A stretch of DNA of 64,000 bases from Hoeflea ulvae (GTDB taxonomy: Bacteria; Pseudomonadota; Alphaproteobacteria; Rhizobiales; Rhizobiaceae), in NCBI RefSeq assembly GCF_026619435.1, contig NZ_JAOVZQ010000001.1:2301501-2365500 (forward strand). Direction: 5' to 3'. Positions 3,030 to 26,988 of this stretch are shown here, piece by piece (position 1 is the first letter of the stretch; every line of letters begins with the position of its first letter). The notes below the pieces were generated by a model. It saw nothing but the letters and a program-made list of their open reading frames with translations, made no database searches and was not told the origin of the DNA. A program made the position numbers and the translations under genes.

Positions 3030-3683
3030 TCAGCCACGCATCTGCGTCAGCTGCTTGAGGATGCTGGTGTAGTTCTCGGTGCCCTGGGCGCCGGTGACCA
3101 GGTGCTTGCGGTCAAACACCACCGCTGGCACGCCGGAAATGCCCTGCTGGACCCAGAAGCTTTCCTTCTGCCGCACCTCTTGCGCATAACGCTGGTCTTC
3201 CAGCACTGCCCTTGCTTCTGCAGCATCCAGGCCGATGCTCTCTGCCACATCGACCAGCACGGCGATGTCGGAGAGATCGCGGCGGTCGGTGAAATGGGCG
3301 GCAAACAGTGCCTGTTCCAGATCATGGCTGCGGCCCTGGGTTTCCGCCCAATGGATCAGTTGGTGGGTGTTGAAGGTGTTGTGCATTCGCATGTCGTCGG
3401 CAAAGTTGAACGCGAATCCGAGGTCCTTGCCAAGTTCGGTCAGCCTGGCGCGGCTTTCCAGCGACTGCTCGCGCGTGCTGCCGTATTTCTCGGTGATGTG
3501 CTCGCCGAGATTCTGGCCCTCGGGCGGCATTTCGGGATTGAGCTCGAACGGGTGCCAGTGGATTTCATGGGCGATGCCGGTGTCTTCCAGCGCCTGCGCC
3601 AATTGCCGGTAGCCGACGATGCACCAGGGGCAGACAACGTCTGAGACGATGTCGATCCGCAGCGGCTGGGTTTGGTCTGTCAT
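3030..3683 (-). CDS. DsbA family oxidoreductase (FrnE-like)
   Basis: A 217-residue thioredoxin-fold protein with an inserted helical domain. The redox site is C18-P-W-C21 immediately after the first strand (RIDIVSDVVCPWC). The cis-proline segment GISGVPAVVFDRKHLVTGAQ lies near the C-terminus. There is no signal peptide, so unlike periplasmic DsbA it should act in the cytoplasm, as FrnE does in stress-linked disulfide chemistry. Length and motif order match the FrnE/2-hydroxychromene isomerase-like branch, and presence of both cysteines favours oxidoreductase over isomerase. It converges on the outer-membrane protein gene and stands alone. The physiological substrate is unknown. Confidence 0.9.
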   Translation of the reverse strand: MTDQTQPLRIDIVSDVVCPWCIVGYRQLAQALEDTGIAHEIHWHPFELNPEMPPEGQNLGEHITEKYGSTREQSLESRARLTELGKDLGFAFNFADDMRMHNTFNTHQLIHWAETQGRSHDLEQALFAAHFTDRRDLSDIAVLVDVAESIGLDAAEARAVLEDQRYAQEVRQKESFWVQQGISGVPAVVFDRKHLVTGAQGTENYTSILKQLTQMRG

Positions 3684-4243: not shown

Positions 4244-4798
4244 TCAGGCGGCTTTCTGCCAGCCGAATTTCTCGAACGGCGCGTCGACCGGCGTCTGCGC
4301 CAGATGGTTGGTGTAGTTCGACATCACCTTCTGGGCGACACCCAGAACCACTTCGAGAATATGACGCTTGCTGAAGCCGGCATCAAGGAAAGCCTGCACT
4401 GCCGCTTCGTCGACATTGCCGCGGCCGCGCACAACGCTGAGCGTGAAGCTGCGCAAGGCTTCCAGATGCGCGTTGGGCAGCGGCGTTTCATTGCGCAGCG
4501 CCTCGGTGATCGCGTCATCGACCTTCATGCTCTTGGCGATGCCGGTATGGGCCGGAACGCAATAGTGGCAGGCATGCTCGACATTGACGGTCTGCCAGAC
4601 GACGGTCAGCTCGTCCTTGTTGAAGCTCGAATTGAGGAACTGCTCGTGCAGGAACTGGTAGCCGGCAAGAAGGCCGGGGGCTTCGGCCATCGTTGCATGC
4701 AGTCCGGGGATCATGCCGAACTGTTTCATCGAATTGGCAAGCAGGGGCTTGCTGTCTTCAGGGGCTGTGGTCTCGGTGTGAAGCGGAAAGTCGGTCAT
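4244..4798 (-). CDS. Carboxymuconolactone decarboxylase (AhpD-like) family protein
   Basis: A 184-residue helical protein of the CMD/AhpD superfamily. The signature EHACHYCVPAHTGIAK carries a CxxC pair plus downstream His, the arrangement used by AhpD-type alkylhydroperoxidases for thiol chemistry. The start at 4798 is chosen for the GAGGAGAT ribosome binding site just before it, not the in-frame ATG 24 codons upstream, which lies inside the operator region. It is divergently transcribed from a TetR regulator with two palindromes between them, so induction by a small molecule relieving TetR repression is likely. The role may be peroxide or electrophile detoxification; the actual substrate is not evident. 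Confidence 0.87.
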   Translation of the reverse strand: MTDFPLHTETTAPEDSKPLLANSMKQFGMIPGLHATMAEAPGLLAGYQFLHEQFLNSSFNKDELTVVWQTVNVEHACHYCVPAHTGIAKSMKVDDAITEALRNETPLPNAHLEALRSFTLSVVRGRGNVDEAAVQAFLDAGFSKRHILEVVLGVAQKVMSNYTNHLAQTPVDAPFEKFGWQKAA

Positions 4799-7828: not shown

Positions 7829-8680
7829 TCAGGTCTCGCCAACAAGCATCTTCATGTCCGACACGGCGCCCGGGCCCTGGGCCAGCAGGCGGGCAAGTTC
7901 GGGCAGGATTTTTTTGAGCTCGGCTTCCAGCGTGAACGGCGGATTGACGATCACCAGTCCGGATCCGTTCAGCCCCGGCGCGGTCCGGTTGTCGCGCGTC
8001 AGCAGCCGCACCGAGAGCGTGCGCGGCCGGCCGAGCGCGACCAGTTTCTTGTCGAAGGCGGTCAACTGGCTGTCGGCCTTGATCGGGTGCCACAGCATAT
8101 AGGTGCCGCCGGGAAAACGCCGCGTGGCGCGGGCCAGCCCGTCGACCATCCGGTCATATTCGCCATCCTCTTCGAAGGGCGGATCGATCAGCACAAGGCC
8201 GCGCTTTTCCTTGGGCGGCAGATGACCGCCCAGCGCCAGCCAGCCGTCAAGTTCGATCACCCGCACCTGGTGGTCGCCCGCAAAAACCTTGCGAAGCTGG
8301 GTGGCGTCGGCGGGATGAAGCTCTATTGCCGTCAGCCGGTCCTGCTTGCGCATCAGCATGCGTGCAAGTTTCGGCGATCCGGGGTAGTGGCGAACGCCGC
8401 CCTCGGGATTGAGCGTCTCGACCGCTTCCAGCCAGGGCGCCAGGAAAGCCTTGAGTTCGTCCGACATCGCCGCCTTCGTCAGCCGGCCGATGCCTTCGCG
8501 CCATTCACCGGTCTTTTGCGCCTCGTTCGACGACAGATCATAGACGCCGATGCCCGCATGGGTGTCGATCACCCGGAACGCCTGATCCTTGTGTTTGAGG
8601 TAATTGACGATCTGGGCCAGCACCGTGTGCTTGAGCACATCGGCGAAATTGCCTGCATGGTAGCTGTGACGGTAATTCAT
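7829..8680 (-). CDS. rlmJ: 23S rRNA (adenine(2030)-N(6))-methyltransferase
   Basis: A 283-residue N6-adenine methyltransferase of the RlmJ family. The family-typical start MNYRHSYHAGNFADVLKHTVL fixes the initiation codon at 8680; the frame stays open far upstream, but only as a shadow of the opposite-strand oxidoreductase. The SAM-binding segment is FRVIDTHAGIGVYDL near residues 36-49, and the catalytic DPPF motif is at residues 166-169. The enzyme modifies A2030 of 23S rRNA during ribosome maturation. It is divergent from the molybdopterin oxidoreductase gene, with about 84 bp between the starts. Confidence 0.95.
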   Translation of the reverse strand: MNYRHSYHAGNFADVLKHTVLAQIVNYLKHKDQAFRVIDTHAGIGVYDLSSNEAQKTGEWREGIGRLTKAAMSDELKAFLAPWLEAVETLNPEGGVRHYPGSPKLARMLMRKQDRLTAIELHPADATQLRKVFAGDHQVRVIELDGWLALGGHLPPKEKRGLVLIDPPFEEDGEYDRMVDGLARATRRFPGGTYMLWHPIKADSQLTAFDKKLVALGRPRTLSVRLLTRDNRTAPGLNGSGLVIVNPPFTLEAELKKILPELARLLAQGPGAVSDMKMLVGET

Positions 8681-8764
8681 CGTTTGACGTAATCTGTCCC
8701 TGAATTGATCTGATGAAGCCGGGCGGGCGTGGCGCGGTGTCGCGATTTCTCTTATAGAGAAAGC

Positions 8765-10909
8765 ATGAACGACGCGACCCCCATTGATTCCGCCCTCATC
8801 GATTCCGGTGCAGTTGCCGCCATCGGCCATTCCGCCTGTCCGCATGATTGCCCGTCCACCTGCGCGCTGGAAGTGGAGCTGCTGTCGCACAACCGCATCG
8901 GCCGGGTGCGTGGCGCGGCCGGCAACAGCTATACCGCCGGCGTGATCTGCGCCAAGGTGGCGCGCTATGCCGAGCGGATCAACCATCCCGGCCGGCTGCT
9001 CAAGCCGCTGATCCGCGCCGGCGCCAAGGGCGAGGGGCAGTGGAAGGATGCCAGTTTCGAGGCAGCGCTCGATCTCATCGCCGAGAAATTCGACCGCGCG
9101 GAAAGCAAATTCGGCTCCGAGACCGTCTGGCTCAACTATTACGCCGGCACCATGGGGCTTGTGCAGCGCGACGGCATCCACCGGCTGCGCCACGCCAAGC
9201 GCTACTCGAACCAGTTCGACAGTTTCTGCACCAACCTGGCCTGGACCGGCTTCACCATGGGCGCAGGTGCGCTGCGTGGTTCTGACCCGCGCGAGATGGC
9301 CAAATCCGACTGCGTGGTGATCTGGGGCACCAATGCGGTCTCCACCCAGGTCAATGTCATGACCCACGCCATGCGCGCCCGCAAGCAGCGCGGCGCCAAG
9401 ATCGTCGTCATCGACATTTATGACACGCCGACGATGAAACAGGCCGACATCAAGGTGCTGCTGAAGCCCGGCACCGATGGTGCCTTTGCCTGCGCGGTGA
9501 TGCATGTGCTGTTTCGCGAGGGCCTGGCCGATCGCGATTATCTCAACAAATACAGCGACGACCCGGCAGGTCTTGAATCACATCTGCAGGACCGGACGCC
9601 ACAATGGGCCGAGGCGATCTGCGGTGTGCCGGTGGCCGAAATCGAAGCTTTTGCGCGTCTGGTCGGCACCACCAAGCGGAGCTTTTTCCGGCTCGGTTAC
9701 GGCTTTACCCGCCAGCGCAATGGTGCTGTCAACATGCATGCAGCGCTGTCGCTGGCGGTGGTGACCGGCAGCTACCAGTATGAAGGCGGCGGGGCGTTTC
9801 ATTCCAATTCCGATATTTTCCGGCTCGACAAGACGCTGCTCGAGGGCCGCAAGCATTTTGACCCAAGCCTGCGCTGGCTCGACCAGTCCAAGATCGGCCG
9901 GGTGCTGACCGGCGAGGCCGAGGCGCTTAATGGCGGTCCGCCGATCACCGCCATGCTGATCCAGAACACCAATCCCGCCAATGTGACGCCCGAGCAGCGC
10001 AAGGTCATTGAAGGCTTCAAACGCGAGGATCTGTTTGTCGCCGTGCATGAGCAGTTCATGACCGACAGCGCAAAACTCGCCGACGTGGTGCTGCCCGCCA
10101 CGATGTTTCTCGAGCATGACGACATCTATCGCGGCGGCGGCCATCAGCACATTGTTCTGGGCCCAAAGCTGGTCGATCCGCCTGAAGGGCCAAAGCCCAA
10201 CCATCACGTGATCGAAGGGCTGGCCAAGCGGCTGGGCGTGAGCGACCGCGAAGGCTTCGGCCTGACCGAACGTGAGCATATCGACATCATGCTGAAAAAA
10301 CGCGGCATGGGTGATTTCGACAGCTTCAAGGCCGACAAATGGGCCGATTTGCAGCCCGATTTCAACACCGCGCATTTTCTTGACGGCTTTGGCCACAAGG
10401 ACGGCAAATTCCGCTTCCGGCCCGACTGGACCGGCACCCCGGCCGCCAACAAGCCGCCCAAACGCATGGGTCCGCAGGGGCCGGTGGACCAACTGCCTGA
10501 GTTTCCCGATCATGTCGACCTGATCGAGAGCGCAGATGCCGACCACCCGTTCCGGCTGGCAACCTCGCCGGCGCGGTCGTTTCTCAATTCGACCTTTGCC
10601 GAAACGCCGTCTTCAACGGCCAAGGAGAAACGGCCCGAGCTGATGATCCATCCGGACGACGCGGCCGCACTCGGCATCGCTGATGGCGACCGGGTGCAGC
10701 TCGGCAATGGCCGGGGCGAGGTTGCAATGCATGCCGGGCTCGATGCCGGCCAGCGTCGCGGCGTCGTCATCCATGAAGGTCTCTGGCCCAATTCCGCCTT
10801 TGAAGCCGGCGAGGGCATCAACACGCTCACCGGCGCGGATTCCTGCGCCCCCTATGGCGGCACCGCCTTTCACGACACCAAGGTGTGGCTGCGACGGGCA
10901 GAGGTCTAG
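8765..10909 (+). CDS. Molybdopterin oxidoreductase family protein with a replaced 3' end
   Basis: A 714-residue MopB-superfamily enzyme. The 4Fe-4S site uses C25, C29, C33 (CPHDCPSTC) and C62 (GVICAK). Molybdopterin-binding segments follow (VIWGTNAV, QNTNPANVTPEQ, MTDSAKLADVVLPATMFLEHDD), and the C-terminal molydop-binding domain begins near FRLATSPARSFLNST. There is no twin-arginine signal, so it is cytoplasmic; the redox substrate is unknown. The start at 8765 follows AGAAAG and removes 12 unlikely residues. The last codons lie in a 42-bp sequence (10858-10899) repeated exactly at 11706-11747. Here the protein ends RRAEV; in the distal copy the same frame ends RRA plus TGA, which I take as the ancestral end. 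Confidence 0.92.
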   Translation: MNDATPIDSALIDSGAVAAIGHSACPHDCPSTCALEVELLSHNRIGRVRGAAGNSYTAGVICAKVARYAERINHPGRLLKPLIRAGAKGEGQWKDASFEAALDLIAEKFDRAESKFGSETVWLNYYAGTMGLVQRDGIHRLRHAKRYSNQFDSFCTNLAWTGFTMGAGALRGSDPREMAKSDCVVIWGTNAVSTQVNVMTHAMRARKQRGAKIVVIDIYDTPTMKQADIKVLLKPGTDGAFACAVMHVLFREGLADRDYLNKYSDDPAGLESHLQDRTPQWAEAICGVPVAEIEAFARLVGTTKRSFFRLGYGFTRQRNGAVNMHAALSLAVVTGSYQYEGGGAFHSNSDIFRLDKTLLEGRKHFDPSLRWLDQSKIGRVLTGEAEALNGGPPITAMLIQNTNPANVTPEQRKVIEGFKREDLFVAVHEQFMTDSAKLADVVLPATMFLEHDDIYRGGGHQHIVLGPKLVDPPEGPKPNHHVIEGLAKRLGVSDREGFGLTEREHIDIMLKKRGMGDFDSFKADKWADLQPDFNTAHFLDGFGHKDGKFRFRPDWTGTPAANKPPKRMGPQGPVDQLPEFPDHVDLIESADADHPFRLATSPARSFLNSTFAETPSSTAKEKRPELMIHPDDAAALGIADGDRVQLGNGRGEVAMHAGLDAGQRRGVVIHEGLWPNSAFEAGEGINTLTGADSCAPYGGTAFHDTKVWLRRAEV
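10858..10899. repeat. 42-bp direct repeat, proximal copy (att-like)
   Basis: Identical to 11706-11747. It encodes the final residues GTAFHDTKVWLRRA of the oxidoreductase in frame. Flanking bases differ from those of the distal copy on both sides. Confidence 0.95.
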
Positions 10910-11604
10910 TTCAAGACATAGCCATCGAAAGTTTTCCCCGGATCGCTTTTAACGAAATTGAACGGATTGAGTTGAGCCGCATTGGAATAGCCGCCGCTCA
11001 CCGCTCCAAGGAAAACGTCTATGTGGTTGCCGGTGATTTTTCCGCCCACATCGCCGCATTCAAAAATACCGTCATGTGTCTGGCCGTTGGGTAGCGCTAT
11101 GCCTTTTGCGGCTGGGATGTAAATTCTTTGCCCAAATTTGGCATAGCCGCCATTGAGCCATGGTTCCGAATTTTCCACCGTGCCCAGATCACATGCCAGT
11201 GTCTTGAAAGGGAGCAGGGGGTTGCCTCTTGATCCGTCTCCATAGGGATGTTTTGCCAATGTCCACCGGACTCTGGAACTGGACTTATGAGGGCAATCTG
11301 CCTGTTTCGGATTGCGGACGCCTGCATAGTTGAAGACCTGAGATGCCACATGTATTGTACCCTCGATGGCGCCCTTGCACCAGTCGGACGCCTGGATCTT
11401 GGGCCCGATGACTTGATCCTGCATGTTCCGGATTGGAACCGCGTCGTCTTGTGTGTATTCCTCAAGCTTGAGAGCGTAGTAGAATGTTGCCCAAAGCTTT
11501 ACTTTGGTGCTATTTGAGATATCGAAATCCTGAGAATGCGAAGCGTATGGGTTAGTTATAAAAAGGATAATTGCAATAAGAATAGCTGATCTATATTTAT
11601 ACAT
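10906..11604 (-). CDS. Secreted 3D-domain protein carried by the insertion
   Basis: A 232-residue exported protein. The signal peptide is MYKYRSAILIAIILFITNPY with cleavage near residue 24. The C-terminal half matches the 3D (Asp-Asp-Asp) domain of MltA-like and Rpf-associated double-psi barrels: D139 (TLACDLGTVE), then GQRIYIPAAKGIALP, then D185 (GDVGGKITGNHID) and D196 (HIDVFLG). That fold usually acts on peptidoglycan; the N-terminal half, with four cysteines overall, is unassigned. AAGGAG precedes the start, and a good promoter lies further up. Codon use is AT-richer than in neighbouring genes. Its stop overlaps the convergent oxidoreductase stop by four bases (CTAG). It is the only gene in the insertion. 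Confidence 0.85.
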   Translation of the reverse strand: MYKYRSAILIAIILFITNPYASHSQDFDISNSTKVKLWATFYYALKLEEYTQDDAVPIRNMQDQVIGPKIQASDWCKGAIEGTIHVASQVFNYAGVRNPKQADCPHKSSSRVRWTLAKHPYGDGSRGNPLLPFKTLACDLGTVENSEPWLNGGYAKFGQRIYIPAAKGIALPNGQTHDGIFECGDVGGKITGNHIDVFLGAVSGGYSNAAQLNPFNFVKSDPGKTFDGYVLN

Positions 11605-11640
11605 AATTGATTCTCCTTATTTATTTTCTGCGGAAAGGTA

Positions 11641-11669
11641 ATTTTATACATATTGTAATTCTAGTTCAA
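11641..11669 (-). promoter_or_regulatory. Sigma-70-type promoter of the 3D-domain gene
   Basis: On the minus strand TTGAAC (11664-11669) and TAAAAT (11641-11646) are separated by exactly 17 bp, in a strongly AT-rich stretch inside the insertion. The start codon is about 37 bp downstream. Confidence 0.6.
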
Positions 11670-11705
11670 TTGATTATATGGGCAAAATGTACATTAGGTA
11701 TTGGC

Positions 11706-11747
11706 CGGCACCGCCTTTCACGACACCAAGGTGTGGCTGCGACGGGC
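11706..11747. repeat. 42-bp direct repeat, distal copy (att-like, ancestral gene end)
   Basis: Identical to 10858-10899. Read in the oxidoreductase frame it encodes the same C-terminal residues and is followed directly by TGA at 11748-11750 (arginine-arginine-alanine-stop), then by the terminator at 11769-11799. Confidence 0.95.
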
Positions 11748-11768
11748 CTGACGCTTTCATGACTGCCA

Positions 11769-11799
11769 AAAGCCTGCCGACGCAGCGCCGGCAGGCTTT
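11769..11799. terminator. Terminator between the insertion and the SDR gene
   Basis: An 11-bp stem, AAAGCCTGCCG at 11769-11779 and CGGCAGGCTTT at 11789-11799, has A-rich and T-rich flanks and can work in both directions. It serves the leftward SDR gene and, before the insertion, probably ended the oxidoreductase transcript. Confidence 0.8.
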
Positions 11800-11803
11800 C
11801 GCA

Positions 11804-12553
11804 TCAGGTCTTGTTGATCGAGTTGCCGCCGTCGGCCAGCAGCGCGCTGCCGGTCACGAATGACGATTCATCGGACACCAGAAACAGCGCCGCGCGCGCG
11901 ATTTCTTCGGGCTCTGCCATCCGCTTGAGCGCATGCAGCCCCTTCACCCAGTCATGAAACGCCGGATCGTCGCCCGCCATTGCGGTCCTGGTGCCGCCCG
12001 GCAGCAGCGCGTTGGCGCGAATGCCGTCTGCACCATGTTCGGCTGCCAGCACCTGGACAAGGCCGATCAGCCCTGCCTTTGAGGCGGCATAGGCGCCCAT
12101 GCCGGGAAGTCCGATGGTGTGGCCGACAAAGGACGAGGTAAAGACAATCGACCCGCCGCGCTGCTTCATGGCCGGAATCTGATGCCGTGCGGCATGAAAC
12201 CCGCCGGTCAGGTTGGTGGCAATGACCATTTCCCATGTTTCGGGCGACATGTCCGGGATCGGGCCCATTTCCCCGGTTGTTCCGGCATTGTTGAAGGCGC
12301 CGTCAAGTCCGCCAAATTCTGCCGTCGCCAGATCGACCAGCGCCTTGTGGTAGGTGCCGTCTGAGATGTCGCCGGCGAGCCATTTTGCCTTGCGGCCGGT
12401 CTCGCCGATTTTCCCGGCGATCAGCGCCAATTCGGTGTCCCGGCGTGCGCCCAGAACCAGATTGGCGCCTTCGGCGGCAAAAAGTTCGGCGGCCGCCGCG
12501 CCGATGCCGCTGCTGGCGCCAGTGATGATGATGGTTTTTCCCTCAAGTCGCAT
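11804..12553 (-). CDS. SDR family oxidoreductase
   Basis: A 249-residue classical short-chain dehydrogenase. TGASSGIG is at residues 12-19, FNNAGT near residue 90, the catalytic serine in VFTSSFVGHTIG, and YAASK supplies the Tyr/Lys pair. The C-terminal FVTGSALLADGGNSI segment closes the fold. All canonical catalytic residues are present, unlike the SDR at the left end of the window. It probably reduces or oxidises a carbonyl/alcohol pair with NAD(P). It is convergent with the insertion locus, with a shared terminator between. The substrate is unknown. Confidence 0.92.
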   Translation of the reverse strand: MRLEGKTIIITGASSGIGAAAAELFAAEGANLVLGARRDTELALIAGKIGETGRKAKWLAGDISDGTYHKALVDLATAEFGGLDGAFNNAGTTGEMGPIPDMSPETWEMVIATNLTGGFHAARHQIPAMKQRGGSIVFTSSFVGHTIGLPGMGAYAASKAGLIGLVQVLAAEHGADGIRANALLPGGTRTAMAGDDPAFHDWVKGLHALKRMAEPEEIARAALFLVSDESSFVTGSALLADGGNSINKT

Positions 12554-12691
12554 GCTGCTCTCCTGTGTTGCGAGAGCCGATGCTTAGGCAGAGGAGAGCG
12601 AGGCAGCCACCCGATTTGAGCACCCGAAACCAGCCGCTGCCGTTGCAGTGAAGCCAGCTTCCAGCATTGAGATCTGCCCGGTTCGCACGCT

Positions 12692-13162
12692 TTACTGCGC
12701 CGGTTCTGTTTGCCGGGACAGCAGGGCGGCGCGGACGGTGCCGAGCACATCGTGCAGTTTGACCAGATCGGCAAGCGGCAGACCGAAGGCCTCCATGATG
12801 CAGTCGGGAATGTGCCGCGCGGCCTGATGCAGCTCTGCGCCCTTTCCGGTCAACGTTACCCGCACCTTGCGTTCATCCGCCGCATCGCGCTTGCGCGTGA
12901 CCAGGTCCTGTGTTTCCAGCCGCTTGATCAGCGGCGTCAGCGTCGAGGATTCCAGATACAGCCGCTCGCTGATGGCGCCGACGGTGAGGTTGTCGCTGGC
13001 CCACAGGATGGTCAGCACCAGATATTGCGGATAGGTCAGCCCCAGCGGCGCCAGCAGCGGCTTGTAGACCTGGCCGACGGCGTGGTGGGTCGAATAGAGG
13101 TCAAAGCAGAGCATTTCCTCCACCGCCATGCTGCGGTTGCCGGCCTCGGGCTGTTCAGTCAT
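12692..13162 (-). CDS. ohrR: Organic hydroperoxide-sensing MarR family repressor, two-cysteine type
   Basis: A 156-residue winged-helix repressor. The peroxide-sensing cysteine is C19 in the family motif LCFDLYSTHHA, and a second cysteine, C121 (HIPDCIMEA), is placed as in two-Cys OhrR proteins that form an intersubunit disulfide on oxidation. The DNA-binding part is LTVGAISERLYLESSTLTPLIKRLETQDLVTRKRDAADERKV. It is divergent from ohr, its usual target, with about 125 bp between. Oxidation by organic hydroperoxides should release it from the operator and induce ohr. Confidence 0.94.
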   Translation of the reverse strand: MTEQPEAGNRSMAVEEMLCFDLYSTHHAVGQVYKPLLAPLGLTYPQYLVLTILWASDNLTVGAISERLYLESSTLTPLIKRLETQDLVTRKRDAADERKVRVTLTGKGAELHQAARHIPDCIMEAFGLPLADLVKLHDVLGTVRAALLSRQTEPAQ

Positions 13163-13218
13163 CGTCGAAACTCCATTGCGCAGGCCTTTTATTTCGCGGG
13201 CCGGTCAATCGCAAGCAG

Positions 13219-13248
13219 TTGACACTCCGCCGGCACAGGGATTAATAT
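13219..13248 (+). promoter_or_regulatory. Promoter of ohr
   Basis: TTGACA (13219-13224) and TAATAT (13243-13248) are separated by 18 bp, a close match to sigma-70 consensus, 40 bp before the ohr start codon. Confidence 0.7.
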
Positions 13249-13253
13249 CGCAC

Positions 13254-13266
13254 ACGATTTAATCGT
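13254..13266. promoter_or_regulatory. Candidate OhrR operator
   Basis: An inverted repeat, ACGATT-T-AATCGT, lies just downstream of the -10 hexamer and before the ribosome binding site (AAGGAG near 13276-13281). Position and symmetry suit a MarR-type repressor that blocks transcription start. Confidence 0.55.
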
Positions 13267-13287
13267 AAGCAATATAAGGAGCTCTCC

Positions 13288-13716
13288 ATGCCGACCAAGA
13301 TTGTCTACTCCACAAATGCCACGGCCACCGGCGGCGGTCGCGACGGTCATTCCAGCACCCATGATGGCGCCGTTGACGTCAATCTGGTGGTTCCCAAGGA
13401 AATGGGTGGCCCGGGTGGCGACGGCGTCAATCCCGAGCAGCTCTTTGCCACCGGCTATGCCGCCTGCTATCTCGGCGCGCTGCGTTTTTACGCCGCTCAG
13501 AAGAAGGTCGATGTGCCTGACGACACCACCGTCAATGTGACGGTCGGCATTGGCCCGCGCGAGGATCTGGGCTTTGGCCTCGACGTCAAGATCAAGGTGT
13601 CGTTGCCCGGTGTCGAAAAATCGGTCGCCGAAGATCTGATCGCCGGCGGACACAAGGTCTGCCCCTATTCGCATGCCACGTCCGGCACGCTCGACATCAC
13701 GCCCGAGCTCGTCTGA
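13288..13716 (+). CDS. ohr: Organic hydroperoxide resistance protein
   Basis: A 142-residue Ohr/OsmC-fold thiol peroxidase. Its two redox cysteines are C60 (FATGYAACYLGALRF) and C125 (GGHKVCPYSHATSG), the pattern that separates Ohr from OsmC. It reduces organic and fatty-acid hydroperoxides to alcohols, using lipoylated proteins as reductant in known family members. It is divergent from ohrR with a promoter and operator visible between them, and is followed by its own terminator. Confidence 0.96.
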   Translation: MPTKIVYSTNATATGGGRDGHSSTHDGAVDVNLVVPKEMGGPGGDGVNPEQLFATGYAACYLGALRFYAAQKKVDVPDDTTVNVTVGIGPREDLGFGLDVKIKVSLPGVEKSVAEDLIAGGHKVCPYSHATSGTLDITPELV

Positions 13717-26613: not shown

Positions 26614-26988
26614 AACCCGGTCTTTGCGTCGGTTTGAGCCAACACTCGCTGGTCTGCTGATCACAATGCTTGGGGGGCTGTCCGACGCTGCTGGTGAGGG
26701 CACTGCTTCCGGCGACTGGACAAAGAAAAAGGCCGGGCGAAATTCGCACCGACCTTCCTGACTTGCCTCAACACACACTGCCAGTACATCCGTGGTCAGG
26801 GTGGAGACAAATTTCTTTGTTAATCTCAATATGGGGTATCCTTTCCCCATTGCAAGGGCCAGCGCTCAAAGTTTTTATGAGGCCGCAGACAAAATGATAG
26901 TTCCGTAAGGCATCATCATCCCGGGATAGGGCCTGGAGGGGTAGCCGCATCCCGGGATGGCAAGGCCCAAAAGGCTTTGCACTTGATC
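26614..26988. other. Convergent intergenic region with a leftward terminator and two identical palindromes
   Basis: This 375-bp gap separates ppx from the convergent DUF1428 gene. It holds a hairpin with a minus-strand T-run (26726-26755) and two copies of the palindrome ATCCCGGGAT at 26918-26927 and 26949-26958, the second extending to the 12-base CATCCCGGGATG. Short frames inside lack ribosome binding sites and family resemblance, so I call no gene. Confidence 0.5.
26726..26755 (-). terminator. Leftward terminator, probably of the TetR-headed operon
   Basis: On the minus strand an imperfect GGTCGG/GGCCGG stem around the palindrome GCGAA-T-TTCGC is followed by TTTTTCTTT. It lies about 235 bp beyond the DUF1428 stop codon, and no closer leftward terminator is visible. 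Confidence 0.5.

Follow-up and report, generated by a model that had tools for sequence, protein, structure and literature searches.

A single foreign gene between two copies of a molybdopterin oxidoreductase gene tail in Hoeflea ulvae, best seen as the scar of a one-gene acquisition at a recurrent site

During conjugation in Escherichia coli, as reported in the excerpts of PMC3240628 on which we draw, a product that marks a duplicated lacZ end was obtained from 56 of 60 clones, and duplications of 109-950 bp were confirmed in the 14 clones that were sequenced. Four clones resembled homology-facilitated illegitimate recombination, and the authors concluded that a circle that had lost part of its homologous end was integrated by a single crossover. 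Homology-facilitated illegitimate recombination has been described for Streptococcus pneumoniae, Acinetobacter baylyi, and Pseudomonas stutzeri (excerpts of PMC3240628 and PMC2884548). Here we compare with these systems a natural locus in a 64-kb stretch of the Hoeflea ulvae genome (hereafter the window), in which a single gene for a 3D-domain protein lies between two 42-bp copies of the tail of a molybdopterin oxidoreductase gene. The genome of the window is denoted G000, and other G numbers refer to comparison genomes.

Like the circles described in the excerpts of PMC3240628, the Hoeflea locus has an insert between direct repeats of a gene end, can be explained by one crossover, and belongs to cases in which the duplicated length is variable. 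It also resembles homology-facilitated illegitimate recombination, in which, in the excerpted accounts, one-sided homology places foreign DNA beside a conserved gene. However, such events usually cost the recipient a similar length of DNA, whereas here there was no deletion and the tail was duplicated. The nearest natural parallel that we found is the displacement of type VI secretion system effectors in Vibrio cholerae, as far as it is described in the excerpts of PMC5361080. In those effector arrays and orphan Rhs 3′ regions, as at our locus, an upstream anchor is proposed, new cargo arrives, and the old 3′ end is shifted downstream; the systems differ in that Vibrio exchanges the effector genes and retains the immunity genes, whereas in Hoeflea an intact metabolic gene lends its tail to unrelated cargo. 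Integrase islands at the 3′ ends of tRNA genes, such as the tRNA-Pro island that starts 7 kb beyond the window in G000, likewise have a repeat by which the host gene regains its 3′ end, but this island spans 14.7 kb with a 51-bp repeat and a recombinase inside, whereas the 848-bp unit has no recombinase. None of the titles searched, which lay mostly outside subscription journals, dealt with single-gene islets with duplicated gene tails, and the excerpts of PMC3784515 had no bearing on such a design.

The insertion flanked by 42-bp repeats was confirmed as a real feature. The two copies are identical, lie 848 bp apart (Table 1), and form the sole direct repeat in the window of at least 28 bp and at least 88% identity at a spacing of 0.25-7 kb. 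The longest exact repeat in the window was 42 bp, compared with 14-20 bp in 20 first-order Markov simulations, and it dropped to 19 bp when the second copy was masked. The reading frame of the oxidoreductase stays open through the left copy and closes with AEV; 16 further Hoeflea oxidoreductases were examined, and not one has this ending. Behind the right copy come CTGA, a hairpin resembling a terminator, and then the end of a gene of the SDR family. The insert has a guanine-plus-cytosine (GC) content of 46%, compared with 63% in the flanks. Its only gene is convergent with the oxidoreductase gene, with the two stop codons overlapping in CTAG and that of the 3D gene 6 bases from the left repeat. 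No match to PF00589 (tyrosine recombinase) or PF00239 (resolvase) was found within the window. The initial annotation, made from the letters of the window, was thus sound in anatomy: it had described the identical repeats, an insertion that leaves the host gene full length with two added residues (RRAEV rather than RRA), and a single A+T-richer one-gene insert without integrase.

It had also predicted an empty site with one tail copy followed by TGA and the terminator, and such a site is present in five aligned Hoeflea relatives (G007, G014, G002, G001, and G010). In these five genomes, the gene end, stop codon, terminator, and end of the SDR gene align with the right copy and its flank in G000, so that the insertion is additive and no recipient DNA was lost. 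Since all four of these parts are intact in comparison with the five empty sites, homology-facilitated illegitimate recombination of the strict deletion-forming type is disfavoured. The 3D gene itself was present in only one of the 18 Hoeflea genomes, which together with the empty sites contradicts the view that all relatives carry the gene and both repeat copies. A full-length oxidoreductase was found in 17 of the 18 genomes, the exception being G008, whose assembly is 75% complete, and at all 17 loci the gene is adjacent to a methyltransferase gene, presumably RlmJ-like. What lies downstream of the oxidoreductase varies by genome: an SDR or MarR gene directly, VOC, VOC with CYTH, CYTH, 3D, or DUF2272. 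In this comparison of gene order, the locus is conserved on its upstream side and variable on its downstream side. It was also observed that genes for VOC-like (a name that we assume) and CYTH proteins stand behind the oxidoreductase in some species (L043, L044, and L048, from G011, G013, and G004), and nothing in others.

The 232-residue cargo protein matches the Pfam 3D domain (PF06725) at 25.3 bits against a cut-off of 23.8 (E 1.8e-5). A search among 5.8 billion proteins yielded 26, including the query, and the best other relative shares 69% identity and is encoded on a 1,092-bp contig. Because the alignment with 20 of its 25 relatives, those put in the alignment, reaches through the C-terminal end, the gene appears to be whole up to a point 6 bases short of the junction. 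The AlphaFold model has a predicted local distance difference test score (pLDDT) of 85, and all 13 Foldseek matches with E of at most 0.001 are lytic transglycosylases, the best being MltA (E 2.3e-7), at modest template modelling scores by query of at most 0.48; no solved structure in the PDB was matched by sequence. The protein is likely a cell-wall enzyme with a predicted MltA-like fold, and its secretion is predicted from a hydrophobic N-terminus. In a profile search, six of 394 family genomes matched 3D, five of them distantly and all five in one other genus. Seven relatives on fetched genome contigs, mostly from Nioella and its kin, lie in DNA of 66-71% GC, and no convincing repeat was found around the 3D gene in those seven. 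By these sequence comparisons, the insert is foreign to its Hoeflea host. A phage origin of the 3D gene was rejected, as no match was found in phage records or PHROGs; viral contigs contained three distant relatives of at most 40% identity, and a plasmid origin was likewise set aside, the plasmid search giving one 29% match, in Pantoea.

The oxidoreductase gene end has received DNA more than once. Hoeflea marina (G009) has a second tail copy of 101 bp at 97% identity (3 of 101 positions differ), and between the two copies lies a lone DUF2272 gene, in DNA that has 50% GC, compared with 67% in the flanks. The DUF2272 cargo has a weak match to phage endolysins and one 62% match in the plasmid search, on a Rhizobium leguminosarum plasmid; the same direct-repeat scan as was applied to other loci found no direct repeat at that plasmid stretch or at the DUF2272 locus of G200. 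In G006, a 52-bp stretch at 77% identity that lies behind a CYTH gene and ahead of the native terminator (E 9.5e-8 and 2.0e-6 in two local searches) is probably a decayed duplicate of the tail. A second copy thus stands at this gene end in three of 17 genomes, counting G006 as probable, with unrelated passengers, as the initial annotation had foreseen. On the oxidoreductase gene tree, three changes are needed, two of them forced by well-supported branches, and the position of G009 is unsure owing to its long branch. We also observed that both young inserts at this end, those of G000 and G009, carry predicted cell-wall enzymes.

In a wider survey, with a cut-off of E 0.5, the tail was found in 346 of the 394 family genomes, and 80 genomes were re-searched (78 picked by eye from rows with at least two matches, plus G009 and G006; six further picks were dropped). 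Among these 80, only G000, G009, and G388 had two copies close together on one contig, in a survey that could miss copies of as little as 42 bp in distant genomes. G213 had two tail matches on different contigs, and G190 had a weak tail match elsewhere. G388 was rejected as a further insertion, being a plain 298-bp tandem duplication of the oxidoreductase tail (L092 3004-3615).

The same pattern was found at another gene in G016, where the last 80 bp of ppx are repeated at 95% identity about 3.2 kb downstream. The two copies are identical over 61 bp and have five differences in the last 19. The distant copy keeps a glycine found in the 16 other Hoeflea ppx ends compared, and the gene-attached copy has alanine. 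Beyond about 390 bp, the DNA behind the distant copy is the DNA found behind ppx in several relatives. The first small gene of the islet (119 residues) lies about 350 bp behind ppx in G007 and 600 bp behind it in G013, and the truncated last gene, which we take to be cfa-like, has relatives downstream of ppx in G001, G015, G017, and the window. This pattern is what recombination with the ppx neighbourhood of a relative would leave. Just downstream of ppx in the window, positions 26722-26824 match the Rfam small RNA ar35 (51.1 bits), and this DNA is well conserved in several Hoeflea genomes.

Integration by a single crossover, or an equivalent one-sided event, through the conserved gene tail best explains the insertion, and we hold this explanation at about even confidence. 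A short incoming piece of DNA would have consisted of an oxidoreductase gene end with the foreign 3D gene behind it, and one crossover within the conserved tail would integrate it; alternatively, homology may have acted at the left and illegitimate joining at the right. The host gene would keep a complete end with the foreign gene directly behind its stop codon, and the tail copy and native terminator would be displaced 848 bp downstream, leaving the 42-bp scar. We infer that the incoming DNA itself carried the tail, as a circle or recircularised fragment, and was integrated by RecA-type recombination. The excerpts of PMC2884548 report a threshold of 30 bp for E. coli RecA, so 42 bp could suffice for a crossover.

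The limits of the repeats fit this explanation. Relative to the last base of the stop codon, the 3′ limit of the repeat lies at -4 bp in G000, +2 bp in G009, and 0 bp in the ppx case of G016, whereas the 5′ limits are scattered across these three clear cases. Under a single crossover, the 3′ limits are shared and the 5′ limits varied because donor and recipient share the gene and not what follows it: the 3′ limit would be the point where donor and recipient diverge, and the 5′ limit the point where the piece was cut or recircularised. In addition, cargo of the same kinds occurs near the same anchor genes in sister species, the CYTH gene in G011 and G013 and the 119-residue gene near ppx in G007 and G013.

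Several observations weigh against a single crossover. The E. coli circles of PMC3240628, as excerpted, were laboratory plasmids with duplications of 109-950 bp, whereas at the Hoeflea locus the insert is natural, the repeat is 42 bp long, and no donor is known. The oxidoreductase was encoded at none of 12 loci with relatives of the 3D or DUF2272 genes, a check that left out the five distant 3D loci L183-L187. Comparison of sliding identity and C-terminal ends revealed no clear donor patch in the G000 oxidoreductase, whose last 60 alignment columns are closest to the sister genome G003. The second tail copy of G006 is graded probable because in a 1.64-Mb profile scan it reached only E 0.01, and an unrelated locus scored slightly better (0.0076). 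It should also be noted that comEC of G000 is split over two overlapping frames (C1 2640829-2643425, L137), being either a broken gene or an assembly error, and is in a single frame in G003, G006, G009, and G016; transformation may therefore not work in G000 today.

Some of these points would be expected if the foreign fragment had been captured during repair of a break or stalled fork, by staggered-end fill-in or template switching that copied 42 native bases in the manner of a long target-site duplication, a course of events that we regard as possible but rather doubtful. The incoming DNA would then need no oxidoreductase tail, and survivors would cluster at gene ends because duplications there leave the gene whole. 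In keeping with such a capture, the 42-bp copies are identical and the G000 gene has no donor stretch, the small number of differences between the G009 copies implies that both may be native, and plain duplications of gene tails do occur in these genomes. However, the ends of the repeats meet the stop codon in all three clear cases, as random duplications would not, and the ppx and CYTH cargo near the same anchor gene in relatives also speaks against it.

A third explanation is that the 848-bp unit is a satellite for which the gene 3′ end serves as an attachment (att) site and which a tyrosine or serine recombinase moves in trans. A perfect direct repeat does restore the 3′ end of the host gene, as at an att site, as many as three of the 17 genomes have cargo at the same gene end, each of a different kind, and G000 has recombinases elsewhere (eight PF00589 and two PF00239 matches genome-wide). 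On the other side, no recombinase was found near the site in the five genomes tested: the tyrosine recombinase nearest to it in G000 is about 74 kb off, inside the tRNA-Pro island, and G003, G006, G009, and G016 had no PF00589 match within 200 kb of the oxidoreductase on its contig. The repeats at the oxidoreductase share the last part of the gene and start at different places (42 compared with 101 bp), no constant core was seen, and a degenerate pattern of the tail had no match in viral contigs. We therefore consider the satellite improbable, and a recombinase in trans less likely than repair or a crossover. A broader proposal, on which single-gene cassettes without their own recombinase would be moved in trans to the oxidoreductase 3′ end as their addressed docking site in Hoeflea, appears more improbable still. 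The initial annotation had leaned to att sites among three possible origins. The best fit is its third, in which recombination through the shared bases delivered a cassette, whereas the satellite or att reading is weakened by the distance of the recombinase, the varied starts of the repeats, and ends that meet the stop codon.

It is very unlikely that the locus is the scar of a larger phage or island whose interior was deleted to leave attL, one end gene, and attR. Islands do have repeats at gene ends, cell-wall enzymes are common phage cargo, and the endolysin match of the G009 cargo points the same way. Against this stand the lack of matches to the 3D protein in phage records or PHROGs, the content of the 806 bp, which is one complete gene with no recognised remnant open reading frame (ORF), and the failure to find a larger version in up to 20 kb downstream of the gene in 20 genomes. 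A transposon was rejected as well, since positions 9500-13500 hold 14 inverted-repeat pairs of 14 nt or more, not one of which joins the insert ends, and the duplication, at 42 bp, is not short. That the tail was first duplicated in tandem and the fragment later inserted between the copies is the least credible course, as it requires two rare events and no uninserted tandem form was found at the oxidoreductase in Hoeflea, even though plain tail duplications exist at the oxidoreductase (G388), coaBC (G000), and tuf, none of them an intermediate of the G000 locus.

About 1.67 Mb was scanned in all (window, selected loci, and tiles of G000, at slightly different cut-offs), and three clear tail-flanked cases were found, two of them at the oxidoreductase, for which loci were chosen. 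In 800 kb of other G000 DNA, the scan for islets up to 25 kb long between tail copies turned up only the tRNA-Pro island, together with one tail duplication without a gene between the copies, at coaBC. The oxidoreductase end looks like a preferred site, in a sample that is small and biased. A 28-bp direct repeat of 93% identity was also observed near ORF ends in G009, with copies 24 kb apart (C1 141431-141457 and 165583-165610).

Table 1 Features of the oxidoreductase locus in the window and related features elsewhere. Gene names coaBC and tuf are our assumption.
Feature	Location	Coordinates	Strand	Remark
Molybdopterin oxidoreductase gene	Window	8729..10909	+	726 aa; C-terminus RRAEV, then stop
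Left 42-bp repeat copy	Window	10858..10899	+	Oxidoreductase gene tail
Foreign insert	Window	10900..11705		806 bp, 46% GC
3D-domain gene	Window	10906..11604	-	232 aa; predicted MltA-like cell-wall enzyme
AAGGAG	Window	11613..11618	-	Likely ribosome-binding site of 3D gene, read from sequence
Right 42-bp repeat copy	Window	11706..11747	+	Adjoins native flank
CTGA	Window	11748..11751	+	Last base of final codon plus stop codon, as in empty site
Terminator-like hairpin	Window	11769..11799	+	Native; inverted repeat I8; aligned in relatives
SDR-family gene	Window	11804..12553	-	Native downstream neighbour
Methyltransferase gene	Window	7829..8680	-	Conserved upstream neighbour of oxidoreductase
ppx islet	G016, L045	2900-6174		3.1 kb of small genes ending in truncated gene
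Oxidoreductase tail copies	G009, L018	about 3566-3668 and 4655-4755		Flank lone DUF2272 gene
coaBC tail duplication	G000, C1 (L156, L157)	759555-760165		With palindromic repeat element
tuf tail duplication	G016, L112	19589-19919		No inserted gene
tRNA-Pro(ggg) island	G000, C1 (L124, L125)	2372830-2387614		14.7 kb; 51-bp perfect repeat; tyrosine recombinase

Taken together, the feature in G000 is best seen as the scar of a one-gene acquisition at a recurrent site, by a chemistry that is probably ordinary. The locus bears on the question of how chromosomes gain single foreign genes when no mobile-element machinery is at hand. If a recombinase were found instead, the unit would be an extremely small satellite, and if the gene end were an addressed docking site, such satellites would form a class by which lytic enzymes spread as single genes. 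A duplicated tail with its limit at a stop codon would serve as a legible scar, which names the anchor gene, marks the limits of the incoming DNA, and by its decay gives an age. If such scars are common, genome collections could be screened for one-gene acquisitions and for the sites that they prefer.

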